DNA of 64,000 bases from Myxococcales bacterium (GTDB taxonomy: Bacteria; Myxococcota_A; Polyangia; Polyangiales; Polyangiaceae), in assembly GCA_005777185.1 (NCBI GenBank), contig SXNL01000359.1, forward strand, positions 1 to 64,000. The letters run 5' to 3'. Position 1 is the stretch's first letter. Each line of letters opens with the position of its first letter. Shown in pieces: positions 4,798-63,932 of this stretch. A program made the position numbers and the translations under genes. The notes below the pieces were generated by a model. The model was not told where the DNA came from. It saw only the letters and a list, made by a program, of their open reading frames with translations, and made no database searches.

Positions 4798-5804
4798 AGC
4801 GGGAGATCTGGATCCTCCTGCCCTTCGTCGCGGTGGCCACCGACGCCGTCGTGATCGCGATCGCCTTCGCGGGAGCGCGGGGACTGCCAGGGCTCGCGAC
4901 CGCGACCGTGCTCCACGCCGGCGCCGCGGCGTTCTACGGGTGGGTGCTCGATCAATCCCTGCGCCGGGTGGGCCGGAAGAGCGACCTGTTCGTGTTTCTC
5001 CTCGGCGCCACGGTGGCCTTCTTCATCCCCGTCTTCGGAGGCGCGGCCCTCACCGTCGCGCTCCTGACGGTCGCGACCGCGCGGCCCAAGGAGGACAAGA
5101 ACCCCGTGCAGTACCTCACCCTCCGCGCGCTCGTGGACCGGCAGCCGCCGACGCAGATCCACAGGCGGCGCCCCGCGGATCGGCTCGTGCACGTCGTGGG
5201 CGCGGGCCGCGCGGTCGACGACCGCTTCGAGGCCGTGCTGGCCGCGGCCTCGGCGACCTCGGCGACCACCATCGCGGTCCTCAGAGCGGCCCTCGCGGAC
5301 GCGTCCGAGGAGGTTCGCCTCTCCGCGTTCAGCAAGCTGGAGACGACGACCCGCGACCTCGAGAAGCGCATCGAGGAGGAGCGGGCGCTGCTCGAGGGCG
5401 CCTCGAAGGCGCAGGCGCTGGTCGTCCACGCGACGCTCGCCCAGCTCTACTTCCAGATCGCGTACCTCGGGCTCGCGGAGGGCGAGGTCTTCCGCCACAC
5501 GCTGAAGACCGCGGCCACGCACGCCGAGGAGGCCCGCAAGGGGACCTCGGATCCGCAGATGCTCTGGCTCCTCGGTCGAATCGCGCTCCTGCAGGCCACC
5601 CCGACCGAGCACCCGGAGGAGGCCAAGGGGGCGTTCGAGGAGGCCGTCGTCGAGGGCATTCCCGGCGGCGCCGTGCTGCTCGATCGCGCCGACGAGGCGT
5701 TCAGGCGACGGGCGTTCAAGGAGGTGCGAAAGGTCCTCTCCGAGGGCGCGGACTTGCCACACGACGACGTGGTCGTCAGAAGAATCCAGGAGTTCTGGCG
5801 TTGA
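4794..5804 (+). CDS. pelE: PelE-like inner-membrane TPR protein
   Basis: 336 residues, close to the length of Pseudomonas PelE. The ATG overlaps the pelD stop. N-terminal hydrophobic segments at about 5-27, 33-50 and 62-93 are followed by a soluble helical region with TPR-like helices (ALVVHATLAQLYFQIAYLGL, DPQMLWLLGRIALLQ). PelE is known as a membrane-embedded scaffold interacting with PelD, PelF and PelG. The assignment rests on position, topology and length, because PelE sequences diverge strongly. Confidence 0.8.
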   Translation: MKREIWILLPFVAVATDAVVIAIAFAGARGLPGLATATVLHAGAAAFYGWVLDQSLRRVGRKSDLFVFLLGATVAFFIPVFGGAALTVALLTVATARPKEDKNPVQYLTLRALVDRQPPTQIHRRRPADRLVHVVGAGRAVDDRFEAVLAAASATSATTIAVLRAALADASEEVRLSAFSKLETTTRDLEKRIEEERALLEGASKAQALVVHATLAQLYFQIAYLGLAEGEVFRHTLKTAATHAEEARKGTSDPQMLWLLGRIALLQATPTEHPEEAKGAFEEAVVEGIPGGAVLLDRADEAFRRRAFKEVRKVLSEGADLPHDDVVVRRIQEFWR

Positions 5805-7390
5805 GCACCGACACCAAGACCGCGCCCAAGAAGATCGAGAAGCCGAAGTTCGGCAAGCCCGACGTCAAGCTCAAGCGGGGCCAGAAGATCGCCGTCATGC
5901 TGGTGCTCGAGGGCACCTATCCGTACGTCAGCGGCGGCGTCTCGAGCTGGGTACACCAGATCGTCGGCGGGATGCCCAACATCAAGTTCGGGATCATCTT
6001 CGTCGGGGGAGATCCCGACCTGTACCAGGACTCCAAGTACAAGCTGCCGCCGAACCTCGTCCACCTCGAGGAGCACTTCCTCGCCACGGGCGCGATTCGC
6101 GAGCAGCCGCATCCCCACCACGGCGACGCCGAGTTCTTCAAGGTGTCGGGTGAGGTGCACGACTTCTTCCGCGATCAGACCGGGTGCCTACCGGCGCAGC
6201 TCCTGAAGACGCTGGCGAAACCCCTTGCCGAGCAGCCGGAGATGGCGCTCAAGGACTTCCTCTACAGCGAGCTGTCGTGGCAGGAGATCACCCGACGGTA
6301 CCACCGCAACTGCAGCCACCTGTCGTTCGTGGACTACTTCTGGACGATCCGGTCGGTGCACGCGCCGCTCTTCACGCTGGCGCGCGCGGCGAAGGTGGCC
6401 CCGAAGGCGGCCGTCTACCATACGGTCTCGACGGGCTTCGCGGGCTTCTGCGGATCCATCCTGGGACAGACCACCGGCCGCCCGCTCATCCTCACCGAGC
6501 ACGGGATCTACACGAAGGAGCGGCGCATCGAGCTCCTCGCCGCGCAGTGGCTCGCGGAGGCCGCCCCGGAGCTCGGAGCCGACGCGGCGGGCGGCATCGA
6601 CTACATCCGCCGCCTCTGGATCCGGTTCTTCGAGGGGATGGGCCGCCTCACGTACACGGTCGCCAACCCCATCATCTCGCTGTACGACGGCAACCGGCAG
6701 CGCCAGATCAAGGACGGCGCCGCGGAGGAGCGCGCGAGCGTCATCCCGAACGGGATCGACCTCGCGCGCCTCGTCCCCCTGCGCGCGAAGCGCCCCGCCA
6801 AGATCCCGCGCGTCGTCGGCCTTCTCGGCCGCGTCGTGCCGATCAAGGACGTGAAGACCTTCATCCGCATGATGCGCGTCCTCGCGAACTCGATCGAGGA
6901 CGTCGAGGGCTGGATCATCGGCCCGGACGACGAGGACACGACGTACGCCAACGAGTGCAAGAGCCTCGTCGCGAGCCTCGACCTCGAGAAGCACGTGAAA
7001 TTCCTCGGCTTCCAGCGCATCGAGGACGTCCTTCCCAAGCTCGGCTTGATGGTCCTCACCTCGATCAGCGAGGCGCAGCCGCTCGCGCTCCTCGAGGGCT
7101 TCGCGGCCGGCGTGCCCTGCGTGTCGACCGAGGTGGGCTGCTGCCGCGAGCTCGTGTACGGCACGACGGCACAGGACCGCGCTCTCGGCGCCTCGGGCCG
7201 CATCGTGCCCATCGCGAAGCCCGAGGCAGCCGCCGAGGCCGTCGCCGAGCTCCTCCTCGATCCGAACGCGTGGAGCCTCGCCCAGCAGGCAGGCATCGCA
7301 CGCGTCGAGAAGTTCTACACGCTCGAGAAGATGATCGCCCGATACCAGGACGTCTACCAGGAAGCGATCGCGCGCAGATGGCAGGAATAG
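5801..7390 (+). CDS. pelF: PelF-like GT4 glycosyltransferase (Pel polymerase)
   Basis: 529 residues from a TTG start that overlaps the pelE stop (TTGA). The first 24 residues are Lys-rich and precede the family signature EGTYPYVSGGVSSWVH. The C-terminal Rossmann half contains GLLGRVVPIKDVKTFI and the GT4 EX7E motif in SEAQPLALLEGFAAG. PelF is the cytosolic, nucleotide-sugar-dependent transferase that builds the GalNAc/GalN-rich polymer and is held at the membrane by the PelD/E/G complex. All hallmark motifs are present and the length is slightly above the 507 residues of the Pseudomonas enzyme. A later in-frame start cannot be excluded. Confidence 0.95.
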   Translation: MSTDTKTAPKKIEKPKFGKPDVKLKRGQKIAVMLVLEGTYPYVSGGVSSWVHQIVGGMPNIKFGIIFVGGDPDLYQDSKYKLPPNLVHLEEHFLATGAIREQPHPHHGDAEFFKVSGEVHDFFRDQTGCLPAQLLKTLAKPLAEQPEMALKDFLYSELSWQEITRRYHRNCSHLSFVDYFWTIRSVHAPLFTLARAAKVAPKAAVYHTVSTGFAGFCGSILGQTTGRPLILTEHGIYTKERRIELLAAQWLAEAAPELGADAAGGIDYIRRLWIRFFEGMGRLTYTVANPIISLYDGNRQRQIKDGAAEERASVIPNGIDLARLVPLRAKRPAKIPRVVGLLGRVVPIKDVKTFIRMMRVLANSIEDVEGWIIGPDDEDTTYANECKSLVASLDLEKHVKFLGFQRIEDVLPKLGLMVLTSISEAQPLALLEGFAAGVPCVSTEVGCCRELVYGTTAQDRALGASGRIVPIAKPEAAAEAVAELLLDPNAWSLAQQAGIARVEKFYTLEKMIARYQDVYQEAIARRWQE

Positions 7391-8742
7391 GCTTCGACCT
7401 CAGGCGCCACCTCCGCAAGGAGACCTACGTGGGCCTCCTCCGCGCGTACGGCCTCGCGGCCGTCGTGGGATCGGGGCCGTGGGTCGTCGCGATCGTGGGC
7501 ACGATCGTCATCGGCCTCGCGGCCCTCGTGTACCGGTCGACGGGCGCCGACGTGACGGTCTTCTTCGCCACGGTCACCCACCTCACCGCCGCATCGCTCG
7601 TCACATCGGGCCTCCTGCAGCTGGTGTTCACCCGCTTCATCGCAGACCGGCTGTTCGAGAAGAACCCCGACATCGTCGTCCCCAACCTGCTCGGCGCGCT
7701 CCTCGTGACGACCGCGGCCTCGGGCGGGCTCGGCGGGCTGTTCGCGCTGTTCGCGTTCAAGGGGATGTACACGTACCGGCTGCTGTTCATGCTCAATTTC
7801 GTCGTGCTGAACAACGTGTGGATCCTCTCGGTGTTCCTCACGTCGTTGAAGTCCTACCGCTCCGTGGTCATCCTCTTCCTCGGCGGGTACGGCACGGCCT
7901 TCATCCTCGCGCTGCTCCTCGCGCCGAAGGGCGCAGAGGGCCTGCTCCTCGCCTTCTTCGTCGGCCAGGCGATCCTCTTCTCGGCAACGCTCTGGCTGGT
8001 GGTCCGCGAGTACCCGACCTCGTTCCGCGTCGAGTTCCGGTTCCTCGACCGGCGAAAGGTGTTCCCGGTGCTCGCCGGGACGGGCGCGCTCTACAACGTG
8101 GGCGTCTGGATCGACAAGGTCATCTTCTGGTGGGCGCCCGAGACCGGCATCGAGGTCGTCGGACCGATCCACATGTCACCGATCTACGACGTGCCGATCT
8201 TCCTCGCCTACTTCACGATCATCCCGGGGATGGCCGTGTTCCTCGTGCGCATCGAGACCGACTTCGCGGACGCGTACGACAGCTTCTACAAGAGCATCCG
8301 CGAGGGTGCGTCGCTCGTCACGATCCAGCGCGGAGGGGACCGCATGGTCAAGGCTGCGCGCGACGGGATCTACGACATCTTCCGCGTGCAGGGGATCACG
8401 GTGGTCCTGTTCATCCTCATCGCGCCCCGGATCCTGCGCGCGCTCCACATCCCGCTGTCCTACACGCCGCTCCTCACGGTGGACGTGATCGCGACGGGGA
8501 TCCAGGTCGTGTTCCTGGCCATCCTGACGGTGCTGTTCTACCTCGACTACCGCAAGCTCTCGTTCACGCTGAACGTGCTGTTCTGCATGGCGAACCTGAT
8601 CCTGACCCTGCTGTCGATCCAGCTCGGGCCGCGGTTCTACGGGTACGGGTTCGCGGTGTCCCTGCTCATCGTGAGCACGGCGGGGATCGCGATCCTGACG
8701 CGGCGGTTGAAGCGGCTGGAGTACGAGACGTTCATGCGGTGA
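7378..8742 (+). CDS. pelG: PelG-like inner-membrane polysaccharide transporter
   Basis: 454 residues, nearly identical in length to Pseudomonas PelG (456). The start lies 13 bases inside pelF. About twelve hydrophobic segments cover the whole protein, beginning after GFDLRRHLRKETYVGLLRAYG, a typical PelG amino terminus. PelG belongs to the multidrug/oligosaccharidyl-lipid/polysaccharide (MOP) exporter superfamily and moves the growing polymer across the inner membrane. It is the last gene of the operon; the next gene starts about 75 bases later and is unrelated. No clear terminator hairpin with a T tract was seen after it. Confidence 0.93.
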   Translation: MAGIGFDLRRHLRKETYVGLLRAYGLAAVVGSGPWVVAIVGTIVIGLAALVYRSTGADVTVFFATVTHLTAASLVTSGLLQLVFTRFIADRLFEKNPDIVVPNLLGALLVTTAASGGLGGLFALFAFKGMYTYRLLFMLNFVVLNNVWILSVFLTSLKSYRSVVILFLGGYGTAFILALLLAPKGAEGLLLAFFVGQAILFSATLWLVVREYPTSFRVEFRFLDRRKVFPVLAGTGALYNVGVWIDKVIFWWAPETGIEVVGPIHMSPIYDVPIFLAYFTIIPGMAVFLVRIETDFADAYDSFYKSIREGASLVTIQRGGDRMVKAARDGIYDIFRVQGITVVLFILIAPRILRALHIPLSYTPLLTVDVIATGIQVVFLAILTVLFYLDYRKLSFTLNVLFCMANLILTLLSIQLGPRFYGYGFAVSLLIVSTAGIAILTRRLKRLEYETFMR

Positions 8743-58214: not shown

Positions 58215-58271
58215 TGGGCACTTCGACGCACGATCTTCTTTTTGTGCGTACCCCGGGTGAAGATGCGGGCC

Positions 58272-59402
58272 ATGTCCCTCGCGACCGAGCTCGCCGATCT
58301 GCCCGAGGAGATGCGCGCGCGCCTCGCTCATGCGGGCTTCGACGAGGCGCGGTGGCTCGAACTGGCCGGCTCCATCCGCACCCCGGAGGCGCGGCGCGCG
58401 CGGGAGGAGAAGAACCGGGTCACCGGCGACGTGCGCCCGCCCGCGCCTGGCGTGATCGCCCGCGTGCGGGCGGAGGACGAGGCGCGGCTGCGCACGATCG
58501 GGCGGGACGCCCTCTCCCGCGGGGAGCTCGCGTTCATCGTGATGGCGGGCGGAATGGCCACCCGGATGGGCGGCGTCGTGAAGGCCCTCGTCGTCGCGTT
58601 CGAGGGCAAGACCTTCCTCGATCTCCGCCTGGGGGAGAACCGCTCGCTCACGGCCCGATGCGGCGCGGAGATCCCCCTGTGGCTCATGACGAGCGAGGCG
58701 ACGCACGCCGGGATCACGGGCGCGCTCGAGAAGGCCGGGGCCGGCCCCCACGTGCGGGCCTTCACCCAGGATCTCTCGCTCCGCATGACCCGCGAGGGAG
58801 GGCTCTTCCGTGACCACGACGGCCTTCCCAGCGTCTACGCGACGGGCCACGGCGACCTCGTCGACGCTGTCCGACGCTCCGGGTACCTCGACGCGTTCCT
58901 GACGCGCGGTGGCAAGTACGTATGGATCGCGAACCTCGACAACCTCGGCGCGACCGTGGACGACGCCATCCTCGGGCACTTCATCGAGACGGGGAAGGAC
59001 GTGATGGTCGAGGTCTGTGACAAGGTGGGCTCCGATCGCGGCGGGATCCCCGTCTCCGTCGATGGCAAGGTCCAGGTCCTGGAGGAGTTCCGCCTGCCGC
59101 CGGGCTTCGACGCGAGCGCCGTCCGCGTGTTCAACACGAACACCTTCCTCGTCCGCGCCGACGCGCTCGCCCGCGCGACCATCCCCTGGAACTGGTTCTA
59201 CGTCGAAAAGAAGGCCGACGGCGGTGTGGCCGTGCAGTTCGAGCGGCTCCTGCAGGAGCTGACGAGCGCCCTCCCCTCCGCGTACCTCGGCGTGCCCCGT
59301 GAAGGCGACGCCACGCGCTTCCTGCCCGTGAAGGACCACGACGAGCTCGCCGCGAGGCGCGCGGACATCGAGCGGATCGCGCGCGCGCGCGGCATGGTTT
59401 GA
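58272..59402 (+). CDS. UDPGP-family (UAP/UGP-like) pyrophosphorylase
   Basis: 376 residues from ATGTCCCTC; an ATG three codons earlier is also in frame. The nucleotide-binding motif reads VMAGGMATRMGGVVKALV, a variant of the G-G-x-A/G-T-R-x-G signature of eukaryote-type UDP-sugar pyrophosphorylases with a Lys in the expected place. YVWIANLDNLGATVDD is the uridine-binding segment and GDLVDAVRRSGYL matches the family. It makes a UDP-sugar from UTP and a hexose-1-phosphate; the sugar is unknown. It could supply UDP-sugars for the Pel operon, though it is about 50 kb away. Confidence 0.85.
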   Translation: MSLATELADLPEEMRARLAHAGFDEARWLELAGSIRTPEARRAREEKNRVTGDVRPPAPGVIARVRAEDEARLRTIGRDALSRGELAFIVMAGGMATRMGGVVKALVVAFEGKTFLDLRLGENRSLTARCGAEIPLWLMTSEATHAGITGALEKAGAGPHVRAFTQDLSLRMTREGGLFRDHDGLPSVYATGHGDLVDAVRRSGYLDAFLTRGGKYVWIANLDNLGATVDDAILGHFIETGKDVMVEVCDKVGSDRGGIPVSVDGKVQVLEEFRLPPGFDASAVRVFNTNTFLVRADALARATIPWNWFYVEKKADGGVAVQFERLLQELTSALPSAYLGVPREGDATRFLPVKDHDELAARRADIERIARARGMV

Positions 59403-59450
59403 GCGTCCTCGCACCGCGGAGTCCCTTGGTGTAGCCTCGACGCCTCGCCG

Positions 59451-59963
59451 GTGCACTTCGAGATCTGCCACGAGTTCGACATCCCGCTCGACGCGCTCGA
59501 GCTCGCTGTCCTGTCGCCCGATCTCGTGGAGTCCCTGAAGCTCCGGCTCCGCGACGCGCCCGCCGTCGACCAGAAGGAGCACGATCTCGAGGGCCACCGG
59601 ATGCGGCGCCTGTGGAGCTTCCGCGGCAACGTGAAGGTGCCGTCGTTCGCAGGCCGCTTCGAGAACGTCGGGAAGGACGTCTGGGCCTGGGACGAGCGAC
59701 TCGACTACGATCTCCGCCGCCACGCCTCCGACTGGACGATCGTTCCGCGCGTGAAGCCCGGGTGGGAGAAGTACTTCTCGGGCGGCGGCTCGTACCAGCT
59801 GTTCCCGCTGGGCGCAGGGCGGAGCAAGCGCGTCGTCTCCGGCCGCGTGGAGCTGCGCCTACCGGTCGTGCGGGGGGTCGCGGAGAAGCGCATGTACCAG
59901 GAGCTGAAACGCACGTTCGACGCCGAGGCCGAGACGCTGAGGGAGATGGCGACGCTCTCGTGA
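59451..59963 (+). CDS. DUF2505 family (START-like) protein
   Basis: 170 residues from a GTG start. Features of DUF2505 are visible: an amino-terminal strand HFEICHEFDIPLDALELAVL, a central RFENVGKDVWAWDERLDYDL and a C-terminal helix MYQELKRTFDAEAETLREMA. Likely a hydrophobic-ligand carrier or cyclase-like protein, function unknown. It ends 22 bases before the SppA fusion gene and is probably co-transcribed. Confidence 0.7.
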   Translation: MHFEICHEFDIPLDALELAVLSPDLVESLKLRLRDAPAVDQKEHDLEGHRMRRLWSFRGNVKVPSFAGRFENVGKDVWAWDERLDYDLRRHASDWTIVPRVKPGWEKYFSGGGSYQLFPLGAGRSKRVVSGRVELRLPVVRGVAEKRMYQELKRTFDAEAETLREMATLS

Positions 59964-59985
59964 GCGCCGGGAACGAGAGGACACC

Positions 59986-62556
59986 TTGAGCTTTCGCACG
60001 TACACCCGCCTCGCATCGCCGATCGCCGCCGCCTCGGCGCTCGCCGTCCTCGGCGCCCTCGCCACGATCGGCCCGCGCGACGCCGCCGCGGGCGAGCCGT
60101 TCCCGACGCGGGCCGAGCGGCTCCCTGCGCCCGGCAAGAGCGCCGCGAGCGAGGACACGCTCGACGCGCTCGTCCTCAACCCGGCCAACCTGGCGAACAT
60201 GCCGTCGCGCGAGGCGCGGTACACGTACGTGCGCTGCGAGGACACGCGCAAGGTGGCCTGTGGCCATGCGGTCCAGGTGGGCGCGCCGCTCCCCTTTTTC
60301 GACCTCGCGACAGGCCTCCGCCTCGACTTCGTGCAGCCGCCGGGCGGGCCGAACGGCGCGGGCTTCCCCTACGACGGCGTCGACTACGTGTGGCTCACAT
60401 GGGGCCTCGCGCACCGCACGAGCGAGCGCACGCAGATCGGCGTCACCGCGCAGACGTCGTACTCGACCAACCTGTACACGGACAGGCTCTTCGGCCTGAG
60501 CGCGGGCTTCTCGTACAGACCCATGACCCGGCTCGGCTTTTCGCTCGTCGGCCACGATCTCAACGGCCCGAGCGTGCAGCGGTTGCCGCCGTTCGGCCGC
60601 CCCGTCCTCGCGCGGAGCTGGACGGGCGGGCTCTCGTTCCGCCCGCTCCAGACGCGCGCGCTCGACGTCGGCGCGGAGCTCCGGTACTTCGAGGTGCTCG
60701 ACGCGTGGCGCCCGCGCCTCACCCTGGGCGTCGACGTCCCGGGCGTGGGGCGCGCGCGGGGCGATCTGGAGGTTCAGAACCTGGGCAACGACGCGACGCG
60801 CGGCGTGGTCGCCACCGCCGGGGTCGAGATCGCCTTTGGCGGGTTCTCGGCGGGCGGGGGCGCGATGTTCGGCAACGGCCTCGGCAGCCCGCAGAGCGTC
60901 GGCGCATACGCGAACCTCGGGATCACGGGCTACACGAGCCCGGGCGTCCCCCGTTCGGAGCGCGCGGTGTCGTTCCGCGTCGAGTCCACGCCCGGCCCGC
61001 GCACGCACGCTGCCCAGCTCCGCCGGCTCTGGCGCCTCGCCGAGGACCGCGAGATCGCGGCCGTCACGATGATCCTCCGCGCCGAGCCCGCAGGCTCGTA
61101 CGCGCACGCCGAGGAGCTCGCGGACGCGTTCCGCGTGCTGAAGGCCCATGGCAAGAAGGTGATCTGCCACTGGGAGGAGGCCGGTCCCAAGGCCCTCTAC
61201 GCTTGCGCGAGCGCGGACAAGATCGTGATCAACCCGGCCGGCGGCCTCCGGTACTCGGGCATGAAGTCCACGCACATCTACCTCGCCGGCCTCCTCAAGA
61301 AGATCGGTGTGAGGGCCGAGTTCGTGCGCATCGGCGCGCACAAGTCCGCGCCCGAGCAGTTCATGAACGAGCACGCGAGCCCCGTGGCCAAGCGGGACCA
61401 GGAGGATCTCCTCGCGCAGATCGACGCGGTCTTCACGGAGAACCTCGTGAGGTACCGGAAGCTCCCGGCCGCGCACATCAAGGCGGTGACCGCCACCGGT
61501 CCCTTCACGGCGACCGAGGCTCGCGATGCCCGCTTCGTGGACGGGTTCGCCTTCGACGACGAGATCGAGCGCGCCACGCAGGACGTCGTCGGCCGGAAGG
61601 TGAGCCTGGAGAAGTACGAGGACGAGACGCGCGCCCCCTCGACGTTCGGCTCGCGCGGCAGGGTGGCGATCCTCTACGTCGACGGCGACATGATCGACGG
61701 TCGCTCGAAGAAGATCCCCATCCTGGACCAGCGCCTCGTCGGCTCCTACACCATCGCCGAGGCCGCGAAGAAGCTCAAGGACGACAGCGACGTCAAGGCG
61801 GTGGTCCTCCGCATCGAGACGGGCGGTGGATCGTCGATGGCCGCCGACGTGATGTGGCGCGAGCTCAAGACGCTCGGAGAGAAGAAGCCGCTCATCGTGT
61901 CGATGGGGTCGGTCGCCGCGAGCGGCGGGTACTACATCGCGTCCGCGTCGAAGACGATCTACGCGTGCCCGCTCACGATCACCGGCTCGATCGGCATCTT
62001 CTACGGCAAGGCCGACACGAGCGAGCTCCTGGGCAAGCTCGGCGTGAACGTCGAGGTGCGCAAGACCACGCCGCGCGCGGACGCGGAGTCCCTGTTCCGC
62101 GGCTTCACCGAGGACGAGCGCCGGGAGCTCGAGAAGAAGATCGCGCAGTTCTACGGCATCTTCCTCGATCGCGTGTCGAGCGGGCGCGGCATGAGCAAGG
62201 ACGCGGTCGACCTCGTCGGCCAGGGCCGCGTCTGGACGGGCCAGCAGGCGATGGAGCGCGGGCTCGTCGACAAGATGGGCGGCCTCCGGCACGCGCTCGA
62301 GGCGGCGCGCGCGGCGGCGAACCTGCCGGACGACGCGCCCATCGTCGAGGCCCCCACGCGAGAGACGACGCTCCTCGAGAAGGCCCTCGAGCTCGCTGGC
62401 CTCCAGGCCTCGTCGCCGCTCGCGGCGTCGTTCCCCCCGCAGCTCCGCGACGCGGCGCGCGCGGTCGCTCCGTTCGCCGTGTTCGCGGAGGGCCAGCCGC
62501 TCGCGATGATGGAGTGGATCCCCCTCGAAGCGACGTCCGGAACAGACGAGGAGTAG
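59986..62556 (+). CDS. SppA-type protease fused to N-terminal beta-barrel
   Basis: 856 residues from a TTG start with a GAGAGGA ribosome-binding site. A signal peptide (to about residue 36) precedes a beta-strand-rich region (about 45-340: LRLDFVQPPG, FSYRPMTRLGFSLVGHDLN) resembling an outer-membrane barrel or autotransporter-like domain. A complete SppA/peptidase S49 tandem follows. The catalytic Lys is K453 in GAHKSAPE and the nucleophile is S646 in VAASGGYY. Classical SppA degrades cleaved signal peptides in the inner membrane; fusion to an amino-terminal barrel would place S49 activity at the outer membrane, an unusual arrangement that deserves checking. Confidence 0.85.
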   Translation: MSFRTYTRLASPIAAASALAVLGALATIGPRDAAAGEPFPTRAERLPAPGKSAASEDTLDALVLNPANLANMPSREARYTYVRCEDTRKVACGHAVQVGAPLPFFDLATGLRLDFVQPPGGPNGAGFPYDGVDYVWLTWGLAHRTSERTQIGVTAQTSYSTNLYTDRLFGLSAGFSYRPMTRLGFSLVGHDLNGPSVQRLPPFGRPVLARSWTGGLSFRPLQTRALDVGAELRYFEVLDAWRPRLTLGVDVPGVGRARGDLEVQNLGNDATRGVVATAGVEIAFGGFSAGGGAMFGNGLGSPQSVGAYANLGITGYTSPGVPRSERAVSFRVESTPGPRTHAAQLRRLWRLAEDREIAAVTMILRAEPAGSYAHAEELADAFRVLKAHGKKVICHWEEAGPKALYACASADKIVINPAGGLRYSGMKSTHIYLAGLLKKIGVRAEFVRIGAHKSAPEQFMNEHASPVAKRDQEDLLAQIDAVFTENLVRYRKLPAAHIKAVTATGPFTATEARDARFVDGFAFDDEIERATQDVVGRKVSLEKYEDETRAPSTFGSRGRVAILYVDGDMIDGRSKKIPILDQRLVGSYTIAEAAKKLKDDSDVKAVVLRIETGGGSSMAADVMWRELKTLGEKKPLIVSMGSVAASGGYYIASASKTIYACPLTITGSIGIFYGKADTSELLGKLGVNVEVRKTTPRADAESLFRGFTEDERRELEKKIAQFYGIFLDRVSSGRGMSKDAVDLVGQGRVWTGQQAMERGLVDKMGGLRHALEAARAAANLPDDAPIVEAPTRETTLLEKALELAGLQASSPLAASFPPQLRDAARAVAPFAVFAEGQPLAMMEWIPLEATSGTDEE

Positions 62557-62561
62557 GCGAG

Positions 62562-63932
62562 GTGGCGTGGCGCGACCGCGGCGTCCTGCCCCCGGGGCTG
62601 CCGTTCCCGTCGCCGGCGTTCACGTTCCTTTGGTGGAAGTTCCCGTACCCGCTCCTCGAGGACTCGCAGAGGAGGTACGGCGACACGTTCACGCTCCGGC
62701 TCGCCGGGCTGCCCCCGGTCGTGATGTTCTCGAACCCGGAGGTCGTCCGCCAGGTCTTCCTGGACGACGGCACGACGATGGAAGCGGGCCGCTTCAACCG
62801 CTCGCTCGCCGTCCTCCTCGGCGAGCGGAGCGTGCTCATGACAGACGGCCGCACGCACGCGCGCAAGCGAAAGCTCCTCATGCCGCCGTTCCACGGCGCG
62901 CGCATGCAGGCCTACGCGCGCGCGATGCTCGACCTGTCGGATCGCGCCATCGACGCCTTCCCCCGCAGCGCGGCGTTCTCCCTCCACCCCTTCATGCAGG
63001 AGGTCACGCTCCGCGTGATCGTGCGGACCATCTTCGGAGCGCTCGCTCGTGTGGAGGACAAGCTCGTGGCGCAGCTCGGGGAGGTCCTCGACGTCGGCAC
63101 GAGCATCAGCCTGCTCATCCCCGCGTTGCGGAGGAACCTGTGGGGGCGGAGCCCGTACGCCCGCTTCATGGCGGCGAGCCGCGAGGCCGATCGCACCCTC
63201 TTCGCCGACATACGGGCGCGGCGCGAGAGCGGCGAGCGAGGGGACGACGTGCTCTCGCTCCTCCTCGACGCGCGCGACGAGGACGGCGAGCCGATGCCGG
63301 ACGACGAGCTGCGCGACGAGCTCGTCACCCGGCGCGGGGCCGGCCCCGAGACGACCGCGCCCGCGCTCACCGGGGCGGTCCGCTGGATCGTGGAGAGGCC
63401 CGCCGTGCTCGCGCGCCTGCGCGCGGAGCTACCGCCCGACAAGTGCGGCGATCCCGCGGCCATCGAGAAGAGCCCGTGGCTCGACGCCATCGTGCGCGAG
63501 GCGCTTCGCCTGCAGCCGGTGATTCCCCTCGTCGGTCGCGTCCTCGCGCGACCGGTGTCCCTCGGCGGATGGGATCTTCCGGAGGGGGTTGCCGTCGCGT
63601 GCTCGATCTACCTCGCGCAGCGCCGCCCCGAGATCTACACGGACCCGACCGAGTTCGATCCGGCCCGCTTCCTCGGGCGCGGCAAGCCGAGCGCGGCCTT
63701 CGGCGCGTCCGAGCTGTTCCCGTTCGGCGGCGGGATCCGCCGCTGCATCGGCATGGCGTTCGCGCTCTACGAGATGAAGATGGTCCTCGCCCGCCTGTTC
63801 GCGCGCACGGATCTCGAGATCGCGCACCGCCCCGTGAAGGTGGCGCGCCGGAGCATCACGATGGTGCCCAAGCACGGGCTGCGCGTGCGGCTCTCGCGGC
63901 GCGAGCCGCGACCTACGCCGCCCGGAGCGTGA
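62562..63932 (+). CDS. Cytochrome P450
   Basis: 456 residues from a GTG start six bases after the SppA stop, suggesting co-transcription. The K-helix E-x-x-R is in IVREALRL and the haem-binding loop FPFGGGIRRCIG has the thiolate Cys395. The I-helix motif that normally reads AGxET(T) is preceded by unusual residues (TRRGAGPETT), so oxygen activation may be altered or there may be local base-call errors. The family is close to bacterial unspecific monooxygenases of the CYP110/CYP4-like type. No redox partner gene is next to it. Confidence 0.9.
   Translation: MAWRDRGVLPPGLPFPSPAFTFLWWKFPYPLLEDSQRRYGDTFTLRLAGLPPVVMFSNPEVVRQVFLDDGTTMEAGRFNRSLAVLLGERSVLMTDGRTHARKRKLLMPPFHGARMQAYARAMLDLSDRAIDAFPRSAAFSLHPFMQEVTLRVIVRTIFGALARVEDKLVAQLGEVLDVGTSISLLIPALRRNLWGRSPYARFMAASREADRTLFADIRARRESGERGDDVLSLLLDARDEDGEPMPDDELRDELVTRRGAGPETTAPALTGAVRWIVERPAVLARLRAELPPDKCGDPAAIEKSPWLDAIVREALRLQPVIPLVGRVLARPVSLGGWDLPEGVAVACSIYLAQRRPEIYTDPTEFDPARFLGRGKPSAAFGASELFPFGGGIRRCIGMAFALYEMKMVLARLFARTDLEIAHRPVKVARRSITMVPKHGLRVRLSRREPRPTPPGA

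Follow-up and report, generated by a model that had tools for sequence, protein, structure and literature searches.

Accounts of SppA in Gram-negative bacteria describe an enzyme of the inner membrane whose task is to dispose of used signal peptides. In a stretch of 64,000 nucleotides from a Myxococcales bacterium (contig SXNL01000359.1, positions 1 to 64,000; hereafter the window), one gene for such a protease also encodes some 300 strand-rich residues, which a preliminary description, made from the sequence alone, had read as an outer-membrane-like barrel. The locus raises the question of what this additional domain is, how widely it is joined to the protease, and on which side of which membrane – and to what end – the protease is held.

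An export signal, a predicted barrel and a tandem protease in one gene

The coordinates and residue numbers given in the preliminary description are exact. The frame (59986-62556, + strand) is uninterrupted over 856 aa, starts with TTG and has no further in-frame start codon upstream, and the order of its parts is confirmed: an export signal, a barrel domain of approximately 300 residues, for which AlphaFold2 (AF2) predicts 14 strands, and a complete tandem S49 peptidase (Table 1). The signal-peptide region was modelled as a helix (residues 12-27) of low confidence that lies outside the fold. A chance fusion or an artefact of assembly is ruled out, because 40 further loci in Myxococcota, and loci in other phyla as well, encode the same two-part protein.

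Table 1. Parts of the barrel-SppA fusion gene and its neighbours in the window
Feature	Position	Strand	Basis and remarks
UTP-glucose-1-phosphate uridylyltransferase-like gene, upstream	58242..59402	+	Pfam UDPGP, E 1.2e-42
DUF2505-like gene, ends 22 nt before the fusion gene	59451..59963	+	Pfam PF10698, E 2.9e-5, just below cut-off
Shine-Dalgarno-like AGAGGA	59976..59981	+	4 nt before TTG, read in the sequence
Barrel-SppA fusion gene	59986..62556	+	TTG start, 856 codons and a stop codon; architecture shared by 40 directly read relatives
Signal peptide, residues 1-35	59986..60090	+	hydrophobic core, AAA-G junction near residue 35; from sequence
Putative N-terminal hatch/plug, residues 37-75, NPA motif N65-P66-A67	60094..60210	+	motif conservation, FadL alignments
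Predicted 14-stranded FadL/PorV-type barrel, residues 76-314	60211..60927	+	AF2, structure matches, amphipathic strands, profile match
Linker from barrel to S49 domain, residues 315-325	60928..60960	+	AF2: last barrel strand ends at 314, next starts at 326
First S49 domain, residues 326-545, general base K453 (codon 61342-61344)	60961..61620	+	Pfam, NCBIfam, 3bez alignment
Second S49 domain, residues 559-802, nucleophile S646 (codon 61921-61923)	61660..62391	+	PF01343 best stretch 631-780; SppA_dom 560-775
Cytochrome P450 gene, 5 nt downstream of the fusion gene	62562..63932	+	Pfam p450, E 4.7e-55

That the S49 tandem is complete, with K453 and S646 as its active-site residues, is borne out by domain models, structural alignment and conservation. 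Pfam PF01343 finds two S49 stretches (E 5e-61); the NCBIfam domain model SppA_dom scores 208.9 bits against a cut-off of 155.45, while the equivalog SppA_67K, at 308.1 bits, falls marginally below its cut-off of 311.45. E. coli SppA (3bez) aligns over residues 350-802 of the fusion protein and places K453 and S646 at the catalytic lysine and serine, which we take to be K209 and S409 of the E. coli enzyme, assuming a constant 25-residue offset in the chain numbering of 3bez. K453 is kept in all 41 homologues and S646 in 40 of them. The Ser-Lys dyad is divided between the domains, the lysine lying in the first and the serine in the second.

In this arrangement the fusion resembles E. coli SppA (protease IV, 67K type; PDB 3bez/3bf0), also an S49 tandem with the lysine first and the serine second; the two are 27% identical over about 488 alignment columns and superpose with a TM-score of 0.83-0.85, normalised by target length. 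They differ at the N-terminus: the E. coli protein is anchored in the inner membrane by one transmembrane segment (PMC9360617), whereas in the fusion the signal peptide is followed by a predicted barrel and only then by the first S49 domain. The fusion is thus a variant and not a standard E. coli-type SppA.

Within the window (58242-63932) the gene is part of a tight same-strand cassette comprising the UDPGP-like, DUF2505-like, barrel-SppA and P450 genes. Clustering of neighbours placed a UDPGP-like relative upstream in 16 of 41 loci and found a DUF2505-like cluster in eight loci; no recurrence of the P450 gene was seen in the loci of relatives. A conserved operon was considered as a clue to function and set aside: the cassette (UDPGP-like, DUF2505-like) is family-level only, and neighbours differ elsewhere.

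Fold and family of the N-terminal domain

Residues 1-333 of the window protein match no Pfam or NCBIfam family. The N-terminal parts of 41 relatives gave only weak matches, for the most part to families of outer-membrane barrels (OMP_b-brl, MipA, Toluene_X/FadL, TraF_2); Pfam Toluene_X itself has no match in the window protein and is weakly matched in four of the 41 (E down to 0.0047). Structure prediction with AF2, for which 41 homologues served as input, gave pLDDT values of 86.7 (full protein) and 87.6 (N-terminal domain alone), and the same 14 strands (residues 76-314) appear in both models. The closed barrel that the preliminary description anticipated is therefore what prediction returns, and a strand count accompanies it.

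Comparison of the domain model with solved structures (VIA) points to a single superfamily. The matches are FadL, CymD, TodX, PorV and FadL-like subunits of the Bacteroidota BAM complex, with Z-scores of 21-26 (best match: Z 26.0, 3.0 A over 257 residues); outside the FadL superfamily, OmpG comes next with Z 17.6. In the alignments to FadL the matched part starts at residues 1-9 of FadL, so the hatch is covered. A helix at residues 61-71 bears an N-P-A motif of which N65 and P66 are at least 90% conserved among the 41 relatives, and FadL entries mutated in N33, in P34 or in the whole NPA stretch occur among the structural matches; from this we infer that the motif is equivalent to the NPA of FadL.

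Profile-profile comparison relates the domain to stand-alone proteins that belong mostly to the NCBIfam PorV/PorQ family (hhalign 98.6%, E 4.8e-16). The family model itself (NF033709) returned 0 families for window positions 59986-60984, and the domain is, on sequence grounds, a relative and not a member of that family. A search of PDB sequences with the N-terminal profile produced only chance-level matches (PorV, E 0.72). The strands have the pattern expected of a membrane barrel: averaged over the family, the alternation of hydrophobic and polar residues is 1.34 versus 0.53 in within-strand shuffles, none of 5,000 shuffles being as high, and strands of the S49 domains show no such alternation (p 0.57). 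Together these data support, as a prediction, the assignment of the domain to the FadL/PorV superfamily as a plugged 14-stranded barrel, and with it the original reading of the protein as an SppA with an outer-membrane-like barrel.

Each of the two groups of known barrels shares features with the domain and differs from the fusion. FadL, TodX and CymD (OMPP1 family), which are channels for hydrophobic compounds, have the 14 strands, the N-terminal hatch and the NPA motif; unlike the fusion they are stand-alone proteins, are longer (360-444 residues) and carry no C-terminal enzyme. The PorV/PorQ family (type IX secretion and relatives) and BamG resemble the domain in profile, as described above for PorV/PorQ, and in structure (Z 25 for PorV, Z 21-23 for FadL-like chains of the Bacteroidota BAM), but the PorV/PorQ-family members seen have no protease domain. 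No description of an SppA-barrel fusion was found in the literature (open-licence PMC papers). Each half is of a known kind; the combination is a widespread, conserved and undescribed architecture that relocates a familiar protease. Since neither Pfam nor NCBIfam has a name for the barrel, these genes are probably annotated simply as 'SppA'. The fusion adds a protease to the few FadL/PorV-type barrels with known roles beyond transport, such as PorV and BamG.

Distribution and ancestry of the fusion

The preliminary description had framed the fusion as something to be surveyed among Myxococcota; it is not a myxobacterial speciality. Within that phylum, a search with a single N-terminal sequence gave matches in 42 of 284 genomes and a barrel-profile search gave matches in 199 of the 284, mostly in frames of about 800 aa or more. 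All 40 of these loci that were fetched proved to be the fusion, and Nannocystis poenicansa (L079) is a named carrier. Direct reading established the fusion in other phyla as well: in Poribacteria (L085, L168), in a TA06 candidate (L093) and in Zixibacteria, both at the locus L090 and at ten further loci (L190-L199) from genomes searched around it. The Zixibacteria search returned barrel-profile matches in 60 of 60 genomes, many with a frame of about 800 residues. In the 41 genomes of the Bacteroidota search, tandem SppA proteins almost always have about 600 residues and no barrel; two genomes have frames of 827 and 841 residues with the N-terminal match, and on this sequence evidence a few Bacteroidota probably also carry the fusion.

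Two further kinds of protein came to light during these searches. A metagenome-assembled genome of Fibrobacterota encodes an SppA with about 300 extra N-terminal residues and a FANPAG motif (L130:3984-6440, +); its N-terminal part lies below detection by the barrel profile and is assigned by the motif only, so that it is possibly an independent, or a very diverged, barrel fusion. Three proteins of about 620-650 aa from the Zixibacteria search (L200, L201, L202) are PorV/FadL-like barrels that carry C-terminal TPR repeats and no protease: a second family of barrel fusions, with the module at the same end.

The genome from which the window derives holds a second SppA, on contig C206 (G000:C206, L035:4211-6070, - strand), with 620 aa from ATG and no barrel. 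Its N-terminus is lipobox-like (LALLATVAC-TG / LLATVAC-TGR), and, as far as this incomplete genome shows, both of its SppA proteins lack an obvious inner-membrane helix anchor. The earlier statement that SppA is otherwise an inner-membrane enzyme does not always hold here, the second copy having the look of a lipoprotein. Elsewhere in Myxococcota, SppA proteins of lipoprotein-like, transmembrane-like and short (about 300 residues) types occur. Lipoprotein- and transmembrane-type proteins share the S49 tandem of the fusion and differ from it in the lack of a barrel and in a lipobox-like or hydrophobic N-terminus.

They also stand apart from it in a tree built from 149 S49 tandems. All but one of the 48 Myxococcota barrel forms (47) fall in one group there (support 86), and those from Zixibacteria, Poribacteria and TA06 in another (14 rows, support 88), while the lipoprotein-like and the transmembrane-like or barrel-less proteins occupy groups separate from the barrel forms. 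The barrel label requires three changes on the tree compared to 48 in shuffles, and the starred branches force only one. The fusion may have had a single origin. In two nearly complete genomes, G067 (96% complete) and G203 (99% complete), a single frame at the barrel-profile locus (839 and 987 residues, respectively) accounts for both SppA-domain matches; as far as incomplete genomes can tell, the only SppA there is apparently the barrel form. Many other carriers also keep further SppA genes, in which case the role of the fusion may be specialised rather than that of signal-peptide clearance.

Orientation of the protease and its possible roles

The predicted structure bears directly on which side of the membrane the protease faces. 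In the window protein odd-numbered loops average 10.4 residues and even-numbered loops 4.2, and odd loops are the longer in 41 of 41 relatives. A barrel of 14 strands with an N-terminal plug and loops of such asymmetry should, by the usual pattern, have both termini in the periplasm; given an even number of strands and a periplasmic hatch, the C-terminus – and hence the protease, which follows the last strand after a linker of about 11 residues (AF2 elements) – is periplasmic. By this predicted topology, the protease almost certainly sits on the periplasmic face of the outer membrane and not outside. The preliminary description had proposed that substrates are digested at the outer membrane or beyond it, conceivably in predation; a site beyond the membrane is not supported, given the strand number, loops and linker.

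We consider it likely that the fusion is an outer-membrane-tethered, periplasm-facing SppA that clears released signal peptides together with membrane-derived peptides. The fusion, the conserved dyad, the barrel fold, the periplasmic side (from topology) and the breadth of occurrence come from computation; localisation, activity, oligomeric state and substrates are what we infer for the protein. It would be exported by Sec; its barrel, closed by the N-terminal hatch of the same chain, would insert in the outer membrane and would replace the N-terminal transmembrane helix of E. coli SppA as the anchor; the short linker would then hold the two-domain Ser-Lys protease at the inner face of the outer membrane. 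Substrates would most likely be signal peptides already released into the periplasm and hydrophobic fragments gathering at the outer membrane, and a seat in that membrane could favour such fragments, or debris of lipoproteins and outer-membrane proteins. A review describes E. coli SppA as acting on signal peptides that have already left the membrane for the periplasm (PMC9360617), and an outer-membrane seat is thus compatible with the ordinary SppA job. The Zixibacteria barrels with C-terminal TPR domains support the notion of the barrel as a platform for a C-terminal module. If the proposal is true, the outer membrane can serve as the base from which signal peptides, or peptides of some other kind, are cleared.

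The barrel may be more than an anchor, and two alternatives that make it so appear equally improbable. According to the first, hydrophobic peptides (antimicrobial, prey-derived or environmental) in the outer membrane enter through the FadL-like hatch or a lateral gate and pass directly to the S49 site below, making the protein an import-and-digest unit. The closest solved folds (FadL, TodX and CymD) do carry hydrophobic compounds, the hatch and NPA motif are conserved, and the linker puts the protease near the mouth of the barrel. However, PorV and BamG, which share the fold, are described as serving protein secretion and barrel assembly and not the transport of small molecules (PMC12578637); moreover strand 3 is unbroken in the model, and a FadL mutant without the S3 kink ties for best match. 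All told, we regard this conduit as unlikely. Were it true, it would couple uptake of peptides to their breakdown in one polypeptide, across several phyla.

The second alternative, by analogy with other barrels of this fold, is one of quality control: the barrel would dock on BAM or another outer-membrane machine, and SppA would trim or destroy stalled clients. Precedent exists in BamG, a FadL homologue that is a subunit of the Bacteroidota BAM complex (PMC12578637), and in PorV, a shuttle in the type IX secretion system (T9SS; PMC5562754). Deletion of sppA in Flavobacterium columnare, which raises outer-membrane vesicles 3.8-fold (PMC13236525), also fits, and may be a sign that SppA has some bearing on the outer membrane. 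Yet no conserved bam or secretion gene adjoins the fusion in the 41 loci, and most of the Bacteroidota SppA proteins sampled have no barrel; this role, too, we think improbable.

The view of the preliminary description, in which an outward-facing protease breaks down extracellular or prey protein, has very little probability left. Many myxobacteria are predators, and Nannocystis poenicansa is among the carriers, but the even strand number, the long odd and short even loops, the N-terminal hatch and the position of the protease after the last strand all oppose it; occurrence of the fusion in Zixibacteria, Poribacteria, TA06 and probably a few Bacteroidota argues against a device specific to predation, and the role is rejected on topology and breadth. 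Slighter still is the chance that the N-terminal part is a soluble beta domain and the protein an ordinary periplasmic SppA: family models are silent on this part of the window protein and its barrel is predicted, but the alternation within strands and the lead of the FadL superfamily over the next fold, along with the profile homology to PorV/PorQ, lead us to reject it.

One barrel-SppA copy departs from the conserved dyad. At 5651-8188 of G052:C12 (L060) the motif AASGGYY reads AGGAGYY, which changes S646 to G and leaves the lysine in place; judged by its sequence, this copy is probably a dead protease. A second, truncated N-terminal match follows it at the end of the contig.
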